Source: Halococcus salsus
GTDB taxonomy: Archaea > Halobacteriota > Halobacteria > Halobacteriales > Halococcaceae
Length of the DNA stretch: 64,000 bases
Direction of reading: 5' to 3'
Assembly (NCBI RefSeq): GCF_009900715.1
Contig: NZ_JAAAJC010000001.1
Coordinates: forward strand, 857,216-921,215
Position numbers and translations under genes: made by a program. This document shows positions 11,558 through 21,252 of this stretch, one piece after another (position 1 is the first letter of the stretch; every line of letters begins with the position of its first letter). The notes beneath the pieces were generated by a model. That model ran no database searches and was not told where the DNA came from. It was given only the letters and a program-made list of their open reading frames with translations.

Positions 11558-12157
11558 TCAGGCACCGGCACTGAACTGTTCGTACCGGGCCTCGAACTGC
11601 TCCAGACACGACGGACAACAGAGGTAGTAGAGGTCGCCGTCGACACGGAGGGTCTCGCCCTCCTCGCCGACCTCGTTGCCGCACTCGGCACAGGTTATTG
11701 CGAGGTCGGTCCCGCCGACCTGCGGCGTCCAGTCGGCGTCCGTGAGGACGACGACCTCGTAGTCGGTTATCGCATCCAATCCGTCTTCGTCGAACGTATC
11801 CGAGAGGAACGCACGAACGTTCGCGTCCTGGAGGCGGGACTGGAAGAAGACCCGTGGGTCGGCGGCCGTGAACACGTGTTCGACCCCGTCGGCACGCGTG
11901 AGCGTCTCACGGACCGCCTCGACCGCCTCCGGTCGCACCGAGAGCTCGACCAGAACGGGTGTGCCGCCACGGAGCTTCGAGCGGTCGAGGTCGAGCGTGA
12001 ACCGACGGATGATCCCGAGCTCCCCGAGTCGGCTCACGCGGTCGGAGACCGACGGGGAACTGAGACCGACGGCGTCGGCGATCTCACGGTACGGACGGCG
12101 GGCGTCCTCGGTCAGCAGTCGGAGGATCTCGGCGTCGGTCTCGTCGATGGTTCGCAT
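11558..12157 (-). CDS. Lrp/AsnC-type regulator with C-terminal TRASH metal-binding domain
   Basis: A 199-residue protein. Residues 1-60 form an AsnC-type HTH (DAEILRLLTEDARRPYREIA and VSDRVSRLGELGIIRRF); a RAM-like middle follows. The last 45 residues are a TRASH domain with CAECGNEVG and LCCPSCLEQF, whose cysteines bind metal. This architecture matches archaeal copper-responsive CopT/CopR-type regulators adjacent to copA. The gene lies 160 bp upstream of copA on the same strand. Copper binding and copA control are inferred from the family and position. Confidence 0.88.
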   Translation of the reverse strand: MRTIDETDAEILRLLTEDARRPYREIADAVGLSSPSVSDRVSRLGELGIIRRFTLDLDRSKLRGGTPVLVELSVRPEAVEAVRETLTRADGVEHVFTAADPRVFFQSRLQDANVRAFLSDTFDEDGLDAITDYEVVVLTDADWTPQVGGTDLAITCAECGNEVGEEGETLRVDGDLYYLCCPSCLEQFEARYEQFSAGA

Positions 12158-12313: not shown

Positions 12314-13591
12314 CTACGTCGGCTGTGGCACCGGAAGCGCCCGGTGTGCGCGTGGCGGCACGAGGTAGTTCCCGCGGTTGGTGACGCTCATGTACTGGAG
12401 AATGCCGTTGTTGTTCTTCTGCCCGAGCGCGGACTCGGACGCGAGGTCGGTCCCGTTCATCGCGTCCCGTGTTCGGGTGAAGTCCTCGGTCGTCCGCTGG
12501 AGCGAGAGGAAGTGGAGCCCGGCATCGTCGCCGTCGGTCGAATCGAAGTCCCGCCTGAGGATGATCGGGCGGTCGTTCTCGCGTGCCTGTACCATCTTCT
12601 GGGAGTGGCCGACGACACCGGACTCGCGCGCCGCCGTCTCCGCCGGCGCACAGTCGTCCATCCCGCTTGCGTTCCCGAGGTTCGCGCCGACGCCCTCCAC
12701 CGCCCCCGACTCGGCGTGTGCGGGACAGAACATCTTGCTCACCCGCTGTGACCGGCTGTCCTGATCGTACCACTGGTCAAGGTGGAGTCGGATCTTCGAG
12801 ATCTGCTGGATGCTTCCCTCGGCGAACGGACCCGACCGGATCGTCACGCGGTCCTCGGTCGCCTGATTCTTGTCGAATCCCGATTTGAACCCCATGTAGA
12901 GCGGTGCGTCGTCCGGCACGGGCTCGGAGTCGGGGATCCCATCGACGTCCTGGTTGTCGGCGGGAAGCCCGTCGCCGACGAACCCCGTCCGCCGGTCGGT
13001 TCGTTCGAGCACGCCCCCGGGGTCCGTCTCGATGGCTACCCCGTTGAGTTCGTCCTGCTCGCCGAGAAGCGCCTGTTCGGCCCCGAGCACGACGCTCCCG
13101 TAGTCGCTCGCGAGGTGGACGACCGCGTCGGGGGTATCGAGCGTCGGCTCCTCGAACGGGGTGAGCGCCTTCGGTGCCGCGAGGTCCACCGACTTCGGAA
13201 GCGAGTCGTCGAACCGGTCGAAGTACGCCGACGAGTAACTCACCGTGAAGAGCAGGCCGTCGTTCGAGCGGGGGTAGGCGTGTTCAAGCCCCCGAAACGC
13301 CCGTTCGACGGTCCGGCGGTCGGCATCGGTGGGTGTGCCGTCGCCGGCGTAATCGAGGTACAGCAGCACCCGGTGGCGCGGCCCGAGGTGGTTGTCGGCG
13401 TCGTCCAGGTCGAGAACGTCGTTCCAGGCGTGCTGGCGCGCGGGGAACCCGGAGAGGTCGTCCGGGCCCTGCGAGAGGTCGGGGGTCTCCTCGCGCGCCG
13501 TACACGCCGCGAGCGCCGACCCGCCGCCGATAGCGACCGCGGCCTTCACGAACGCACGTCGCGAGACGCCACGGTCCGTGCGAGGAAGCAT
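12314..13591 (-). CDS. DyP-type peroxidase-like Tat lipoprotein (EfeB-like)
   Basis: A 425-residue protein with a Tat signal (SRRAFVKAAVAIGGG) and lipobox LAAC, so it is probably exported folded and anchored outside the membrane. The C-terminal half resembles DyP/EfeB heme peroxidases: GPFAEGSIQQISKIRLHLDQ, a candidate heme-ligand His in VVGHSQK, and ILRRDFDSTDGDDAGLHF. The DyP signature GxxDG reads GFKSG here, so the distal catalytic aspartate is a serine. EfeB-type proteins work with iron uptake lipoproteins; the neighbours fit that. ATG 13591 was preferred to 13615. It may be a peroxidase, a heme-iron extractor or a non-catalytic relative. Confidence 0.65.
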   Translation of the reverse strand: MLPRTDRGVSRRAFVKAAVAIGGGSALAACTAREETPDLSQGPDDLSGFPARQHAWNDVLDLDDADNHLGPRHRVLLYLDYAGDGTPTDADRRTVERAFRGLEHAYPRSNDGLLFTVSYSSAYFDRFDDSLPKSVDLAAPKALTPFEEPTLDTPDAVVHLASDYGSVVLGAEQALLGEQDELNGVAIETDPGGVLERTDRRTGFVGDGLPADNQDVDGIPDSEPVPDDAPLYMGFKSGFDKNQATEDRVTIRSGPFAEGSIQQISKIRLHLDQWYDQDSRSQRVSKMFCPAHAESGAVEGVGANLGNASGMDDCAPAETAARESGVVGHSQKMVQARENDRPIILRRDFDSTDGDDAGLHFLSLQRTTEDFTRTRDAMNGTDLASESALGQKNNNGILQYMSVTNRGNYLVPPRAHRALPVPQPT

Positions 13592-13616
13592 ACGATCACG
13601 TGGGGTTCGAGCCAAA

Positions 13617-13647
13617 AGCGCGTTCTGGTTCGTCCATCGAACGCGCT
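13617..13647. promoter_or_regulatory. Perfect 9-13-9 inverted repeat with metal-cluster motif (copy A)
   Basis: Arms AGCGCGTTC and GAACGCGCT flank a 13-bp spacer, 25 bp upstream of the DyP-like start codon. Within it, at 13623-13641, is the shared element that reads TTCGA-N8-CCAGAA in gene orientation. It lies immediately upstream of a TATA-like CTTTTGG. It is probably a regulator binding site rather than a terminator, because it sits between divergent promoters. Confidence 0.55.
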
Positions 13648-13716
13648 ACCGTCCCCCGATATGTACGACCGGTGGGCCGCGTTCGGGAGGGACCGTCGAA
13701 CCCCGACCATCGGGAT

Positions 13717-13735
13717 TTCGAGAACCGCACCAGAA
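13717..13735 (-). promoter_or_regulatory. Metal-cluster promoter element TTCGA-N8-CCAGAA (copy C)
   Basis: The element reads TTCGAGAACCGCACCAGAA on the + strand (gene orientation) and ends 35 bp before the ATG of the P19-like gene. A TATA-like GGGATACC follows. It has the same half-motifs and the same 8-bp spacing as the copies before the DyP-like, ferritin-like and CCCCGP genes. Confidence 0.55.
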
Positions 13736-13770
13736 CGGATAGGGGGATACCGCTGTGAGACCCAGTACTG

Positions 13771-14991
13771 ATGAATCGCCGTAGGTTCTTGCGTTCCGGA
13801 GCGGTCTTTGCGACTCTCGGGTCCAGTGGGCTCGCCGGCTGTACCCAGCTGTTCACCACGGGGTCCCAGTACGCGCCACCGATGGTCGAGAACCGGCCGG
13901 ATGGGGTCTACATTCCCTCGCACAAGGAAGGGATGGAAATGGCTGGAATGAGCGGGATGAACAACACTTCCTCGATGGACGGCATGTCCGGGATGAACGA
14001 GACGGACAACAACTCCTCGATGAACGGGATGTCCGGGATGAGCGGGACGGAAAACAACTCCTCGATGGGCGGCATGTCCGGGATGAGTGGGATGAAGGAC
14101 CAGCCGGGGACGCTTCGATGTGCGCTGACCTACAGCTATCCACATCGGTTCTGGACCGTCACCGGAAGCGATACCGAGAAGGTCTCGATAGCGTCCGACG
14201 ACACGCTCCACCTCATGGTCAGCGTCTGGGACGCCGCGACGGGGATGTACGTGATGGACACCGGCCCGACGATAACGGTCTCCCAGGACGGCGAGGAGGT
14301 CACGACGAACACCCCCTGGACGATGATCTCCCAGAACATGGGCTTTCACGCGGGGGACAACGTCTCCCTCCCCGAGGAAGGCACTTACTCCGCGACCGTG
14401 GACGTCCCCGCTGTGACGACCCGCCGAGTCCGGGGCTTCGCCGGGCAGTTCGCCGAACCGCAGACCTTCGAATTCGGGTTCGACTACAGTCGGGAGGCAC
14501 TCGAGAACATCTCGTTCCAACGTCTCGACGACCGGAAGGGGAACCGGCAGGCGATCAGCCCGATGAGAATGGACACGATGCCCCTCTCCACTGCACCCGC
14601 TGCCGGTTCGCTTCCGGGCCGGACGCTCGGCCGAACGAAAACGGCCGACGATATCGTGTTCGTCGCCACCGCGATACCGGATGCCACTGACTTCGACATC
14701 GACGAGAGCACGTATCTCGCCGTCTCGGCACGGACGCCGTACAATCGGTTCGTTCTGTCGGCGATGTCGCTGTCCGGCACGCTCACACGCGATGGACGGC
14801 GGGTGTTCAACGGCCCGCTTACGCCAACGCTCGATCCGGAACTCGACTACCACTACGGCACGGGGGTCGATACCGTACAGGCGGGTGACGTTCTCGAACT
14901 GTCCGTCGAAACCCCGCCACAGGTCGCCCGACATGAGGGCTACGAAACCGCGTTCCTACAGACGGCCACGACTCGGATTACCGTCGAGTAG
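13771..14991 (+). CDS. Met-rich P19/Tp34-like Tat lipoprotein (probable iron/copper-binding)
   Basis: A 406-residue protein with a Tat motif (RRRFLRSG) and lipobox LAGC, hence a surface lipoprotein. Residues 50-105 are a low-complexity region of GMSGM units separated by N/S/T/E linkers, which would offer thioether ligands for Cu(I) or other soft metals. After it, YSYPHRFWTVTG and LHLMVSVWDAATG resemble the P19/Tp34 immunoglobulin-like iron/copper-binding fold, and a second beta-rich domain follows to the end. P19 proteins support iron uptake in bacteria. It lies divergent to the DyP-like gene with a shared 179-bp promoter region. Confidence 0.65.
   Translation: MNRRRFLRSGAVFATLGSSGLAGCTQLFTTGSQYAPPMVENRPDGVYIPSHKEGMEMAGMSGMNNTSSMDGMSGMNETDNNSSMNGMSGMSGTENNSSMGGMSGMSGMKDQPGTLRCALTYSYPHRFWTVTGSDTEKVSIASDDTLHLMVSVWDAATGMYVMDTGPTITVSQDGEEVTTNTPWTMISQNMGFHAGDNVSLPEEGTYSATVDVPAVTTRRVRGFAGQFAEPQTFEFGFDYSREALENISFQRLDDRKGNRQAISPMRMDTMPLSTAPAAGSLPGRTLGRTKTADDIVFVATAIPDATDFDIDESTYLAVSARTPYNRFVLSAMSLSGTLTRDGRRVFNGPLTPTLDPELDYHYGTGVDTVQAGDVLELSVETPPQVARHEGYETAFLQTATTRITVE
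13972..14100 (+). repeat. 45-bp tandem repeats coding for Met-rich linker
   Basis: Units at 13972-14016, 14017-14061 and a partial third from 14062 are 15 codons each (S-M-x-G-M-S-G-M-x-x-T-x-N-N-S pattern). A degenerate earlier unit begins near 13936. The high similarity between units 1 and 2 points to recent duplication by slippage or recombination, so copy number may vary between strains. Confidence 0.8.
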
Positions 14992-15085
14992 CGAGTCGAG
15001 GGCAGTGCGCCACGGATCGACCGGTACCGTCCCGACGACGGGCACCCGAACCGAATCGAGAACGAAGAACGCTCCCGAACGAGTG

Positions 15086-16147
15086 CTACTCCGAAGCGAC
15101 GAACTGCTTCGCGAGGGGGACGACCTGCGCCATCGAGCGCGCCGTATCGAACGCATCGGGTGCCGCTCGACGAAGGTTCAGCGTGTCGAAGTAGCTCGCG
15201 TGTCGTGCCTCGACCGAGTGGATGCTCAGCGCGGCCGAGAGGACGTCCGGGTCGGAGAGATGTGGGGCGGCACCCGCGTACGCCGACACACCGATGTCCT
15301 CGAGACGGGCCGCGGTCGCGACGAACGCGGGAACGGTCCCGTATCCGAATTCGTACTCCGCTTCCCGAACGGGAGTGCCGCCGAGGTCGTCGATCGTCGT
15401 AGTCAGCGCCTCGACGTGCGCCTTCTCGTGATCACGGATTGCCTCAAACTGCTGGTACGTCGAGTAGCGGAGCGTCGGTCGCGCGAAGTACTGCGCGACC
15501 TCGGAGCGTTCGACCTCGCGTTCGGAGAAGCGTCCGCCGCTCGACGCCAGCGCGTCCCGGTAGAACGCGTGTTCGAGGTGTTCGAGCGAAAGCGCGTAGT
15601 TCAGTACGTCGATGTCGCTCGGGGACGTGTCGTCCGGAAGTTCGACGGTATCCGATCCTGCATAGCCGTGCTCCCCGGACTCGTCCCGTTCCCAGTAGAG
15701 GGAGGCGCTCGTCTCGTCGCCGGTGAACCCTGCCCCATCCGTCGGGAAGGTCAGAACGAGGTCGTCGGTCCCATCGCCGTCGACGTTCTCGACCACACCG
15801 TCGTCGACTGGTCGAACACCGCCACCGTTCGCGAGCAGGTCTGTCGTTCCGAAGCGGTATCTGACGGCACGCTCGGTCGGGTCGAACGTCACGCGCTCCC
15901 CGTCCCTGTCCGTGAACGTGGTCGCGCGAACCGCGACCGTCGTTCGACCGTCCTCGCCGGTCCCGACCCGATTTCGTTCCGATCCGGGTTCGACGTCGAT
16001 GTCGAGTTGGTCCGGGAAGTGAGCCGCGGCGACGCCGCTCATCGTGGGGAGCGCGACGGCGGTCGCGGCCGTTCCGAGAGCGAGCTTGACGAACTGACGA
16101 CGGTCGGTGTTCGCCGACGACGGTCGGAGCGATGGTGGCAGGTTCAT
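15086..16147 (-). CDS. Ferritin-like (Ferritin_2) Tat-secreted protein
   Basis: A 353-residue protein with a Tat signal (DRRQFVKLALGTAATAVALP) followed by an AAHFPD cleavage region and no lipobox. Residues 60-180 form a beta-rich domain of unknown type. The C-terminal 180 residues are a ferritin-like four-helix domain with carboxylate/histidine pairs in LEHLEHAFYRDAL, AIRDHEKAHVEAL and SVEARHASYF. Such domains hold a di-metal site. It could store or oxidise iron at the cell surface; this fits its neighbours but is untested. An in-frame ATG at 16165 is an alternative start. Confidence 0.72.
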   Translation of the reverse strand: MNLPPSLRPSSANTDRRQFVKLALGTAATAVALPTMSGVAAAHFPDQLDIDVEPGSERNRVGTGEDGRTTVAVRATTFTDRDGERVTFDPTERAVRYRFGTTDLLANGGGVRPVDDGVVENVDGDGTDDLVLTFPTDGAGFTGDETSASLYWERDESGEHGYAGSDTVELPDDTSPSDIDVLNYALSLEHLEHAFYRDALASSGGRFSEREVERSEVAQYFARPTLRYSTYQQFEAIRDHEKAHVEALTTTIDDLGGTPVREAEYEFGYGTVPAFVATAARLEDIGVSAYAGAAPHLSDPDVLSAALSIHSVEARHASYFDTLNLRRAAPDAFDTARSMAQVVPLAKQFVASE

Positions 16148-16207
16148 GGTCGTTTCGGACCCCATCTCAGGGATCGATCGAGGGTTCGAGCGAAGCGAGG
16201 TCGTGCT

Positions 16208-16226
16208 TTCTGGCTTGAACGTCGAA
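16208..16226 (+). promoter_or_regulatory. Metal-cluster promoter element (copy D)
   Basis: The element reads TTCTGGCTTGAACGTCGAA on the + strand, i.e. TTCGA-N8-CCAGAA toward the ferritin-like gene. It is 60 bp before ATG 16147 and 42 bp before the alternative ATG 16165. It keeps both half-motifs but its spacer differs most from the other three copies. Confidence 0.5.
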
Positions 16227-16346
16227 ACGAAACACCAGCAAAGCGACGTGACATCGACAGTACGATATCTGGTACGTCGCTGACTCGCGGCCTCGATACG
16301 ACGGCGGTGTAGCTCCTTCGTTCGAAGCGACCCACCGACTACCTCG

Positions 16347-17123
16347 TCAGGTGCGTGACCGACCGCTTGCGACAGACCAGCATTCGCGGAGCCCGACGGC
16401 GAGCAGGACGGCCGCCGCGCCCGCCGCGGCGAGGTCCTGCACGAACAGGGGTATCGACCACGCGACCGCGAAGGTGACACCGGCCGCGACGACGTAGACG
16501 GTCTGCATCAGTCCGACCGCGACGACCGCGCCGGAGGTATCGGCAGCGCTGACGTGGGTTCCCGCTACGACGGCGGTCTCGGCGACGGTGTGAAGCGTCA
16601 GCAACACCGCTGCGGTCACCCCGACCACGCCACCCGCGATGTACGCGCCGGCGAGCGCCATGCCCTCGACGAACTGGTGAAGCGTCAACGCACCGGTGGT
16701 CGAGAGGGCTACCGTTCTGTCGTCGGCACGCACCTGCCGCGAGAGCCCTATCGCGCCGACGACCCCCATCGCGCCGGCCAGCAGCGTGAGTCCGGGCTTC
16801 GATGACCCAAGCGGGAGCAACACGAGGACACCGACGAGGGTCAGCCCGACCCCGAGTGCGCCGGAGAATCCCTTCCCGCCGAACCGATCCGATGGATGTC
16901 GAGCTCGGGCGACGACCACTCCGACCCCACCGAGCGAGCCCACGAGGGCCGACCCGAGCACGAGGATCGGGAAGCGAAAGCCGACGGTGGCCTCCGTGGA
17001 CGGGACGTGCGCCGCCGCGAGGAACGGTATCGCGCCGAGCGCGGCGACCCCGACGAGCGACGATGCACCCACCCGAATCCCCCATCGGTCGGTGTCGACG
17101 CCGAGTCCGTTGGGGAGTCTCAT
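16347..17123 (-). CDS. ZIP-family metal transporter-like membrane protein
   Basis: A 258-residue protein with about eight membrane helices. The helix-4 motif TLHQFVEGMALAG and helix-5 motif TLHTVAETAVVAG match the paired H-x3-E signatures of ZIP transporters, although the second has ET where EG is usual. ZIP proteins bring Zn, Fe or Mn into the cytoplasm. It follows the CCCCGP membrane protein by 12 bp on the same strand, so the two are probably one operon. The substrate cannot be read from the sequence; the neighbours suggest iron or copper. Confidence 0.75.
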   Translation of the reverse strand: MRLPNGLGVDTDRWGIRVGASSLVGVAALGAIPFLAAAHVPSTEATVGFRFPILVLGSALVGSLGGVGVVVARARHPSDRFGGKGFSGALGVGLTLVGVLVLLPLGSSKPGLTLLAGAMGVVGAIGLSRQVRADDRTVALSTTGALTLHQFVEGMALAGAYIAGGVVGVTAAVLLTLHTVAETAVVAGTHVSAADTSGAVVAVGLMQTVYVVAAGVTFAVAWSIPLFVQDLAAAGAAAVLLAVGLRECWSVASGRSRT

Positions 17124-17135
17124 CGGTGGAGTGCC

Positions 17136-18440
17136 TCAATCGCCCGACGCCTTCGCGGACGGCGTGTCGACCCGAACGACGCAGGACCTCGGCTCCTGGC
17201 TCATCCGGTCGGCCCGAACGAGGTTCCCCGTGAGCGCGAGTATCGTGACGCCGAAGAAGATCATCCCCACCGGGGAGGCGAGGTCGATGAACAGCCAGTA
17301 GAGCGGCATCGCGGTGGAGGGACCGAGGAGGACGACCGCGAACTCCGCGAGCACGGGGCCACAACAACAGCACGCGTTCGGAGCCGACAGCGCGAGCGCG
17401 CCCGTGATGGCGTTCGTCGTCGTATCGTTCTCCCCGGCGTCGGCTCCGTCGCCCTTCCAGAAGTGGGCGATTGCCGCCCCGTTCAATCCGACCAGCCCAC
17501 CGAGCAGCCCGACGAAGAGGACGACACCGGGCGAGAGCGCCGCCCGGAACGGCACGTACGGCGGCGTCGCGAACAGGTCCGGCGGCAGGATGGCTTCGAG
17601 GACGGGTGTGACGAACGGGAGCCTGGGAACGAAGAGTTCGAGCGCGGGCCAGGTCGCCAGCGGCGCGAGGATCGGGAATATCTCCAGGTCGATCCGGGTC
17701 CACGAGAGCCCGACGCCGTCGTCGATGGCGAAGCTCAGCATTCCCGAGGAGAAGAGGAAGAAGACGGCGGCGAGGAGCGCGATCCCGGCACCGAAACGGC
17801 GTGCGAGACGGTCATTCCGGAGGTCGGCGAGCAGGTGGCGACAGTCACGCCAGAAGATGTAACCCACCGTCACCGGCAGCGCGAGTTCGAGGAGATAACC
17901 CACCGGGTTGGTCGGGCCGTAGAGCCCGAGCGCGTCCATGACCGCCGAGTAGGTTATCCAGAGCCCGAGGATGATGCCGAGGATCGCGTACCGGGGGCGC
18001 GAGGGCCATCGAAGCTGGACCGCGACGAAACTGCCGGTCAGCACGAGCGCGCCGACGAGGAGGGTCGCCGGGTAGAAAGCCGCCTCCGGGATCGGCGACT
18101 GTGAGACCGAGAACGACTGGATCTGCGAGAGCTGTACCAGCCCCACGCCGCCGGCCGCGACGAGCACCAACCCGGCGAAGACCCCGTAGACGGCGTATCG
18201 GTCCCGACCCGTGTCGAGGGTCCGACCGAGGTAGATGCTGGCGGCGACGACGACGAGCCCGGTGACGAGCGGGAGCAGCGACGCCCACTGGACGATCCTG
18301 ACCGTCCCGCCGTGGGCCGACGCGAGCGGGACGAGCTGGAGCGCACCGACGAGTATCGCCGCCCGGAGACCGCCACGAGCCAGCAGCCCCAGATCCGACG
18401 ATAGATCGAACCCTCTATTCATCGTGTCGTGCGAAGCCAT
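17136..18440 (-). CDS. Polytopic membrane protein with CCCCGP motif, unknown function
   Basis: A 434-residue protein with roughly ten predicted membrane helices. Near residue 355 the sequence APNACCCCGPVLAEF places four consecutive cysteines at the start of a helix; this is unusual in haloarchaeal membrane proteins and suggests thiolate metal binding. A histidine-glycine segment (LASAHGGTVRIV) follows the first helix. The C-terminal tail is charged (RMSQEPRSC). It is the first gene of an operon with the ZIP-like transporter. I do not recognise a named family. A metal permease or metal-delivery role is inference from context. Confidence 0.7.
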   Translation of the reverse strand: MASHDTMNRGFDLSSDLGLLARGGLRAAILVGALQLVPLASAHGGTVRIVQWASLLPLVTGLVVVAASIYLGRTLDTGRDRYAVYGVFAGLVLVAAGGVGLVQLSQIQSFSVSQSPIPEAAFYPATLLVGALVLTGSFVAVQLRWPSRPRYAILGIILGLWITYSAVMDALGLYGPTNPVGYLLELALPVTVGYIFWRDCRHLLADLRNDRLARRFGAGIALLAAVFFLFSSGMLSFAIDDGVGLSWTRIDLEIFPILAPLATWPALELFVPRLPFVTPVLEAILPPDLFATPPYVPFRAALSPGVVLFVGLLGGLVGLNGAAIAHFWKGDGADAGENDTTTNAITGALALSAPNACCCCGPVLAEFAVVLLGPSTAMPLYWLFIDLASPVGMIFFGVTILALTGNLVRADRMSQEPRSCVVRVDTPSAKASGD

Positions 18441-18866
18441 TGGATACTACCGGAGAAGAGTGTGTTGTCTTCGCTATTAGTCCGACGGGGGTCGTCCCGG
18501 ACACCGAGAAAAACGGACCCGACCCGGAGTCATCGTCCATCCTCCGACGGGAGGGGGAGGACTGGAAATAGTGTTCTGGTGCGCCCATCGAAAACCGCTC
18601 CGACGCGCTGGAGGGGTCGAGTTCGACCTCCCTCAATTGGCATCCCTCACGGAACGGTTAAATACGTAGAGCGACTTCTATATGGCTGATTCTACCAGCG
18701 TTAGTATCCCTCTGACCTGTCGAGAATTGGGAGAGACGATGAAACCCTTCGAAACGAGCAGTGGCAGCAGAACCGATACGCGGACCGTTGACGAACGCTC
18801 GAAGCGGGCGTCCCGTTCGCCGGCAGTGACCCGTACGGACGGGCCGATCGATGGAGGAAGGTGGCG
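18441..18866. other. Intergenic region, 426 bp, divergent promoters
   Basis: This gap separates the CCCCGP operon (leftward) from the DUF3267 gene (rightward). It contains the metal motif at 18574-18592 and a TATA-like TTAAATA at 18658-18664. A 62-codon open frame (18682-18870) begins just after that box, and its TGA overlaps the ATG of the next gene. The frame is serine/threonine-rich with no recognised domain. It may be a leader frame or simply untranslated leader. Confidence 0.45.
18574..18592 (+). promoter_or_regulatory. Metal-cluster promoter element (copy B)
   Basis: The element reads TTCTGGTGCGCCCATCGAA on the + strand, i.e. TTCGA-N8-CCAGAA toward the CCCCGP operon at 18440. Directly downstream in that direction is a TATA-like ACTATTT, which would give a leader of about 100 nt. 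It matches copy A at 17 of 19 positions. Confidence 0.55.
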
Positions 18867-19742: not shown

Positions 19743-19980
19743 CGCCGTTCGTTCCGTTTCTGTAACGGTTCATCGCGAACCGACTGGAACGAGCCCGGAG
19801 ATATCCTTATGCGAAAGACAGGCGCAAAACCCGGTCCTTGAGGGCGGGGATACGCGCCGTCAGCTTTGTCGCGGATGTTCGCAACTGCTGGCTACCTGCC
19901 GATGGCTGGCCGGATATTCGTTGTCAATTCGTGACCGGTGGGTTCATGTTTACGAGCTTCATAACCGCTTATGGAGACAG

Positions 19981-21252
19981 ATGCCGACGCGAACCATCCG
20001 AACGTTCGAAGCCACCATCCTGAACCAACGACAGGTTCGGGACGACCTCGACCAACTCGGCTGGGCCGCGTCGAAGCTCTGGAACGTCGGTCGCTACTAC
20101 GCACAGGGCATGTGGGACGACACGGGCGAGATTCCCGATGACGGGGAACTCAAACGCGAACTCAAAGGCCACGAACGCTATACGGACCTTCATTCCCAAT
20201 CCAGTCAGCGCGTTCTCGAAGAACTCGCTGAAGCGTTCAACGGCTGGTTCGCAAAGCGTCGGAACGGCGACGACCGTGCCCGACCGCCCGGCTACCGCAA
20301 ACACGGCGATTCGCACCCACGCTCCACGGTGTCGTTCAAGGCGGCTGGCTTCAAACACGACGCACAGTACCAGCGCGTTCGCCTCTCGAAAGGCCGGAAT
20401 CTCAAGGAACACCGTTCGGACTTCGTGCTCTGTGAGTACAAAACCCGACCCGATGTGGACCTCACCGAGTGGGACATCCAGCAGGTCCGGGCCGTCCACA
20501 AACGCGGCGAGTGGCGACTCCAATTCGTCTGCCGAACGACGATTGACCCTCAACCGCCGGGCGACGAGGTTGCCGGAATCGACCTCGGAATCTGCAACTT
20601 CGCCGCCGTCTCGTTCGGTGGCGATTCACTGTTGTATCCCGGTGGCGCACTCAAAGAGGACGAATACTACTTCGCCAAGAAGCGTGCGGAGTGTGACGAC
20701 TCGTTCTCCCGTGAGGCCCGCCGTCTCGACCAGAAGCGCACTGACCGCCGCACGCACTTTCTCCATACCCTCTCGAAAGAGATTGTGGCAAAATGCGTCG
20801 AACGCGAGGTCGGTACAATCGTCGTGGGCGACCTCGGCGGTATCCGCGAGGACGAAAACGGCGACCCCACCAATTGGGGCGACCACGGCAACATGGACCT
20901 CCACGGGTGGGCGTTCGACCGCTTCACGACGATGCTCGACTACAAGGCCGAAGCCGAAGGAATCGAGGTCGAAACCGTCTCCGAACGGGACACGTCGAAG
21001 TCGTGTTCGGTATGTGGTCGGTGCGACGACAGCCAGCGTGTCGAACGCGGATTGTACGTCTGTGACGAGTGCGGACTGGTCGCCAACGCCGACACGAATG
21101 GCGCAGAGAATATTCGACAAAAGGTACTCCCGAATCTCGCCACGGATGGCGGTGATAGGGATAACGGCTGGTTGGCACAGCCAGCGACCCGTCTCTTTTC
21201 ACGAACGCGGGGAGCGTTTTTCCCACGTTCCGAGGCGGGTTGCGAACCCTGA
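19981..21252 (+). CDS. tnpB: TnpB RNA-guided endonuclease (IS1341 type)
   Basis: A 423-residue protein: an N-terminal OrfB HTH region (TFEATILNQRQVRDDLDQLG), then a RuvC-like nuclease with RuvC-I VAGIDLGICNFAAV, RuvC-II region TIVVGDLGGIRED, a four-cysteine zinc finger (CSVCGRC and YVCDECG) and RuvC-III NADTNGAENI. The RuvC-II glutamate found in ISDra2-type TnpB (EDL) is a glycine here (GDL), as in many haloarchaeal relatives. TnpB proteins cut DNA with a guide from the element's right end. The start at 19981 is chosen because homology begins there; 19921 is an upstream alternative. Confidence 0.9.
   Translation: MPTRTIRTFEATILNQRQVRDDLDQLGWAASKLWNVGRYYAQGMWDDTGEIPDDGELKRELKGHERYTDLHSQSSQRVLEELAEAFNGWFAKRRNGDDRARPPGYRKHGDSHPRSTVSFKAAGFKHDAQYQRVRLSKGRNLKEHRSDFVLCEYKTRPDVDLTEWDIQQVRAVHKRGEWRLQFVCRTTIDPQPPGDEVAGIDLGICNFAAVSFGGDSLLYPGGALKEDEYYFAKKRAECDDSFSREARRLDQKRTDRRTHFLHTLSKEIVAKCVEREVGTIVVGDLGGIREDENGDPTNWGDHGNMDLHGWAFDRFTTMLDYKAEAEGIEVETVSERDTSKSCSVCGRCDDSQRVERGLYVCDECGLVANADTNGAENIRQKVLPNLATDGGDRDNGWLAQPATRLFSRTRGAFFPRSEAGCEP

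Follow-up and report, generated by a model that had tools for sequence, protein, structure and literature searches.

A conserved promoter element of haloarchaea marks a likely copper-related metal regulon with a PF24266-DUF7471 pair as candidate regulator

A metal gene block of Halococcus salsus carries the sequence TTCGA-N8-CCAGAA ahead of each of its four units, which raises the question of whether these genes answer to one regulator, and to which. The stretch of DNA analyzed, referred to here as the window, is 64,000 nt long. A preliminary description of the window had reported four exact copies of the element, each reading toward the gene it precedes, and had held that far fewer than one such site was to be expected by chance. 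All four were present at the reported positions and in that orientation (Table 1), and Markov models of order 2 to order 4 trained on the window predicted 0.044-0.091 exact matches over the 64 kb and both strands.

Table 1. Coordinates of elements, promoter boxes and genes, numbered within the window unless marked otherwise; start codons are predicted
Feature	Coordinates	Strand	Basis and remarks
AsnC/Lrp-type regulator with C-terminal TRASH domain	11558..12157	-	PF24273, E 1.3e-22
DUF7405 protein	12314..13591	-	PF24152, E 3.5e-163; weak DyP-peroxidase C-terminal match, PF20628, E 8.4e-5; twin-arginine type leader
TATA-like box CTTTTG, DUF7405 promoter	13613..13618	-	Sequence; the family profile has Y-W-W-T at positions 24-27
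TTCGATGGACGAACCAGAA element	13623..13641	-	Exact match, also fits the refined pattern; DUF7405 start codon 31 nt away
TTCGAGAACCGCACCAGAA element	13717..13735	+	Exact match; DUF7350 start codon 35 nt away
DUF7350 lipoprotein with P19-like domain and Met-rich MSGM repeats	13771..14991	+	PF24041, E 6.6e-53
Ferritin_2 protein with signal peptide	15086..16165	-	PF13668, E 3.7e-40
TTCGACGTTCAAGCCAGAA element	16208..16226	-	Exact match; ferritin-like ATG 42 nt away
Operon gene 2, earlier read as ZIP-like	16347..17123	-	Open reading frame
CCCCGP polytopic membrane protein, operon gene 1	17136..18440	-	Alignment; invariant CxCCxP
TATA-like box CTATTT, CCCCGP promoter	18566-18571		Follows the TTCGATGGGCGCACCAGAA element
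TTCGATGGGCGCACCAGAA element	18574..18592	-	Exact match; CCCCGP start 133 nt away
PF24266 winged-helix protein (HTH_HVO_0163 type)	G000:C4:10716-11234 (outside the window)		Pfam

A TATA-like box had also been described after three of the sites. Two such boxes are clear, those of the DUF7405 and CCCCGP promoters, but the DUF7350 promoter has only a weak one (GATAG, 13738-13742) and no clear TATA follows the ferritin element, a site that also fits the inner CG-N-A of the family-wide element poorly. The CCCCGP site is kept in genome G002, spacing included. A 41-codon frame that opens 33 nt after the 18574 site was discarded as a target, its protein lacking conservation in that genome. Just past the metal block, at 19921-21252 (+), lies an open reading frame whose translation reads like an IS200/IS605-type TnpB/OrfB with a CxxC zinc-ribbon.

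The exact pattern occurs nine times in the 3.52-Mb Halococcus genome, against an expectation of 2.4-5.0, and the reversed control does not occur at all. Five of the nine copies are promoters, namely the four in the window and one at G000:C4:10214, where the element and a TTATT box are followed by a DUF7471 gene and then a winged-helix gene; three of the copies outside the block fall in apparent coding sequence. Over the whole genome, the bare pattern therefore exceeds background by a factor of only about 2-4, and the promoter copies make up the surplus; it is a modest genome-wide marker, and promoter context is what counts. With the bare pattern so near background, the refined core TTCG-N5-YR-N-R-CCASAA was adopted instead, which has seven matches in the genome (control, 0), five of them the same promoters. 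A search allowing one mismatch was of little use in this genome (85 matches; control, 14). Occurrence at background rate had been named as grounds for abandoning the regulon interpretation, and the genome-wide scan did not refute it.

We then examined conservation before orthologous genes. The exact element was found in 17 of 18 genomes of the family. In Halococcus and its relatives, it stands ahead of DUF7350, DUF7405, Ferritin_2, CCCCGP, the DUF7471-winged helix pair, and DsbD_2, nearly always 31-36 nt before the ATG. Ferritin_2 orthologs in other Halococcus genomes keep the element together with a TATA-like CTATA. The DsbD_2 gene with its element is followed by a copper-type P-ATPase gene in four Halococcus genomes; DsbD_2 was sought in the window's own genome and not found. 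Of 80 named DUF7350 loci from haloarchaea, 53 carried the element with at most two mismatches (26 exact, 18 with one mismatch and 9 with two), almost always 31-35 nt before the ATG, and the remaining loci mostly had DUF7350 inside an operon or lacked the element. DUF7405 orthologs in many haloarchaeal genera also carry it upstream. All four units thus retain the element in other Halococcus genomes, and DUF7350 and DUF7405 retain it in many haloarchaeal genera. The second ground named for abandoning the interpretation, a lack of conservation ahead of orthologs, therefore did not refute it either.

A set of 54 non-redundant DUF7350 promoters, picked by gene and independently of the motif, was subjected to unsupervised motif discovery by EM. 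This recovered TTCGac-nnn-Cg-n-ACCAGAA-ccg-n-c-TTT in about 80% of the promoters, with its first base 50-54 nt ahead of the ATG. Across the family the element reads TTCG-N5-CG-N-ACCAGAA. The form first described, TTCGA followed by a featureless 8-nt spacer, is exact in the window, but family-wide the A at position 5 reaches only 74% and the spacer carries information. A perfect palindrome, TTCGA-N3-TCGAA, was rejected, since just the outer TTCG ... CG-N-A is conserved, and the element is at best an imperfect inverted repeat.

Combined with a TATA constraint, the refined pattern gave 226 sites in 111 of the 194 genomes of the order, compared to 6 for the reversed pattern and an expectation of about 0.04 sites per genome, or about 7 in total. 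In a sample of 60 sites chosen by pattern only, one per genome, an open frame starts 29-40 nt downstream in 57, and the first gene was DUF7350 in 22 cases, DUF7405 in 11, Ferritin_2 in 10, DsbD_2 in 5, and another or none in 12, so that 48 of the 60 precede one of these four families. Targets met once or twice were SCO1, NosL, a plastocyanin-type protein, CtaA, HiPIP, rhodanese, and a beta-propeller protein. We regard it as almost certain that the sites belong to a real regulon, and its repeated occurrence, throughout the order, ahead of members of the same gene families supports the original proposal of one regulator for a dispersed metal regulon. Another conserved target is suggested in the g15 genus, where all sampled genomes share a further, near-identical site, TTCGAGATATGCACCAGAATTATCAT (for instance at G113:C3:2379727).

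The products of the target genes were examined by profile and alignment. The DUF7350 protein matched PF10634 (Iron_transport, P19) at 21.5 bits, a marginal score just above the cut-off of 21, and alignment of DUF7350 proteins revealed invariant EGM-x-M and M-G-F-H motifs; a PDB sequence search returned nothing close. Its long Met/Gly/Ser/Asn-rich repeat (MSGM, SSMxGMSGM; window 13930-14110) is shorter or missing in many orthologs. CCCCGP has no Pfam family, and its structure model is of low confidence and without a fold match; the second gene of its operon gave no Pfam or NCBIfam match, which leaves its earlier reading as ZIP-like unconfirmed. In Halorientalis clusters (L139, L146, 4355-9740), separate copies of the element precede DUF7405, CCCCGP, DUF7350, Ferritin_2, and a CtaA-type gene, and the winged-helix gene sits within these clusters. 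Haloferax DUF7350 loci (L196-L200, L208) lack both the element and the winged helix; the genes downstream encode a CopA-like ATPase and a protein distantly homologous to a 459-residue polytopic protein described below.

The preliminary description had named no regulator. The fifth promoter copy now points to a strong candidate, the winged-helix protein encoded there together with its DUF7471 partner. The former matches PF24266 (HTH_HVO_0163_N) at 122.1 bits (cut-off 31) over the full domain (2-70/70), and the latter, encoded by the adjoining gene, matches PF24283 (DUF7471) at 98.3 bits (cut-off 27). The winged-helix protein is modeled (pLDDT 89) as tandem winged helices with a C-terminal helix. 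The second winged helix aligns to SmtB, AdcR, and MarR-type structures with Z 10-12, a likeness to ArsR and MarR proteins that does not establish function; nothing close was found in a PDB sequence search. Alignment of DUF7471 proteins revealed invariant H84, H85, H89, and D92 (HH-x3-H-x2-D) and a nearly invariant E88. A gene at L088:3832-5208, just upstream of the DUF7471-winged helix pair, encodes a 459-residue polytopic membrane protein without a Pfam match; homologs occur in 40 of the 80 DUF7350 loci, and the protein is probably part of the same system.

The winged-helix gene lies inside the DUF7350 locus in 47 of the 80 named loci, and it adjoins DUF7471 in almost every one of 30 loci. 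With presence defined as a close homolog (E below 1e-30, PF24266 paralogs being separated by E-value alone), the motif was found in 110 of 161 genomes with the winged helix versus 1 of 33 without it (Fisher p 5e-13), and among DUF7350-bearing genomes in 106 of 148 versus 1 of 27 (p 1e-11), values inflated by shared descent; stratification by genus, which corrects for phylogeny only in part, gave p 5e-4. A PF24266 homolog occurs without the refined pattern in 51 of the 161 genomes, which may reflect paralogs that bind something else, or too strict a pattern. The sole exception in the other direction, G004, keeps the sites and retains only the C-terminal third of a winged-helix gene (L068:2554-2736) beside the targets, which looks like a recent loss of the regulator. 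In three genomes without the winged helix (L299, L301, L308), the DUF7350 promoters have the core promoter in place, ACCGGAA-CGCG-CTTTT in L301 and similar in the others, and TTCG is absent. On genomic linkage, the element before the pair's own genes, and co-occurrence, we consider it probable that the PF24266-DUF7471 pair is the regulator of this element.

Other explanations were weighed against this one. That the sites arose by chance, or descend from recently duplicated promoters, draws on the low genome-wide excess of the bare pattern, and is rendered negligible by the rigid spacing to the ATG, the recurrence across the order, the reversed-pattern control, and the membership of the downstream genes in unrelated families. 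Haloarchaea have several TFBs, and one given TFB/TBP combination could read the element as nothing more than an extended core promoter, without any dedicated regulator, in keeping with CCAGAA at the BRE position and a TATA-like box at fixed distance. We find this improbable: TTCG and CG-N-A carry information upstream of any BRE, presence of the element tracks the winged-helix gene, and some relatives without that gene keep the core without TTCG. About as improbable is binding of the element by the TRASH-domain Lrp-type regulator encoded 1.4 kb from the first site, despite its place in the same block beside CopA and the ties of its family to copper in other archaea (PMC4236453, PMC7830388). The family (TRASH_HVO_1752_C) is present in 193 of 194 genomes, compared to 111 with the motif, so its distribution does not track the element, and it was rejected on this ground. 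Its gene also has no gene-oriented element upstream, the nearest match (12159, one mismatch) facing away. The denitrification regulator NarO was considered as a candidate and set aside.

A different matter is the signal to which the PF24266-DUF7471 pair would respond. The same regulator could sense iron or oxygen/redox state, a real if lesser possibility given the Ferritin_2, HiPIP, DyP-like, and P19-like targets and the additional role of CtaA and SCO1 in respiratory assembly. Against it stand the copper-specific NosL, SCO1, and plastocyanin-type targets, the CcoI-like ATPase downstream of DsbD_2, and the position of DUF7350 next to a CopA-like ATPase in Haloferax. A reading in terms of iron only was dropped once the NosL, SCO1, and plastocyanin-type targets appeared. 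Taken together, the targets argue more for copper delivery to extracytoplasmic proteins and respiratory enzymes than for iron, and we give copper status a little better than an even chance of being the signal. The metal regulon as first described is upheld and refined, with copper preferred over iron and the 3' half of the element probably overlapping the TFB-recognition element.

Leaderless transcripts are common in haloarchaea. If the target genes are transcribed in this way, TATA and BRE would be expected where the element has its TTT (near -26) and the AA of CCAGAA (near -34/-33), which makes the 3' half a probable BRE. The winged-helix-less promoters that keep the core and lack TTCG agree with this. 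With CCAGAA where a BRE would be expected, the motif probably joins a regulator site to a core promoter, and what is specific to the regulator is probably TTCG-N5-CG-N-A, an imperfect inverted repeat. PF24266 would bind this part, which spans about -51 to -39 and lies immediately upstream of the TFB-recognition element (contained in CCAGAA, about -38 to -33) and of a weak TATA; there it would most likely recruit TFB/TBP and so act as an activator. By analogy with GvpE, whose site likewise lies directly upstream of BRE and TATA, and given the weak TATA boxes (CTTT, TTATT), we lean toward activation; repression through TFB blocking appears less likely. DUF7471, by virtue of its invariant HH-x3-H-x2-D, would be a metal or redox sensor in the membrane, and in Halococcus the pair would be under its own control. 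As a whole, the likely explanation is a regulon that acts through PF24266-DUF7471 and serves copper handling outside the cytoplasm and the maturation of respiratory metalloproteins. The fully specified version, in which DUF7471 senses membrane copper and controls a tandem winged-helix activator of a copper-acquisition regulon through the BRE-fused site, is offered tentatively.

Our literature search found no paper describing the element, searches with the motif gave nothing relevant, nothing was found on DUF7350, DUF7405, or DUF7471, and HVO_0163 appeared in one proteomics paper only. The haloarchaea gain a conserved regulon whose promoter code is short and precise and for which a candidate regulator can be named; the literature searched held no description of it. 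The uncharacterized proteins DUF7350, DUF7405, DUF7471, and CCCCGP are grouped with copper chaperones, so that their roles become testable, and the fixed placement of the site beside the core promoter makes it a convenient model for the action of archaeal activators.

Several known systems invite comparison. At haloarchaeal gas-vesicle promoters, the GvpE activating sequence is an activator site of about 20 nt directly upstream of BRE and TATA (PMC8241225). The element described here is alike in abutting BRE and TATA and in its fixed TATA and ATG spacing, with the BRE position inferred, whereas the activator and target genes are others; the comparison is one of layout. The TRASH copper regulators (Pyrococcus CopR, Halobacterium VNG1179C, and the HVO_1752 family) are likewise archaeal and metal-linked, with a member in the window, but they combine an Lrp/AsnC fold with a fused TRASH domain and their distribution is unlike that of the element. 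With P19/FetMP iron-copper uptake, DUF7350 shares the P19-like domain (PF10634), in which Met and His are conserved, although its Pfam score is marginal, it has the additional DUF7350 domain, and no FTR1-type permease was recognized in the block. Bacterial copper supply to cytochrome oxidase employs CcoI and SenC/SCO (PMC8267372), and a CcoI-like ATPase, SCO1, and, in some loci, CtaA are gene types in common; the haloarchaeal set, in contrast, is centered on DUF7350 and DUF7405 and has a candidate regulator of its own.
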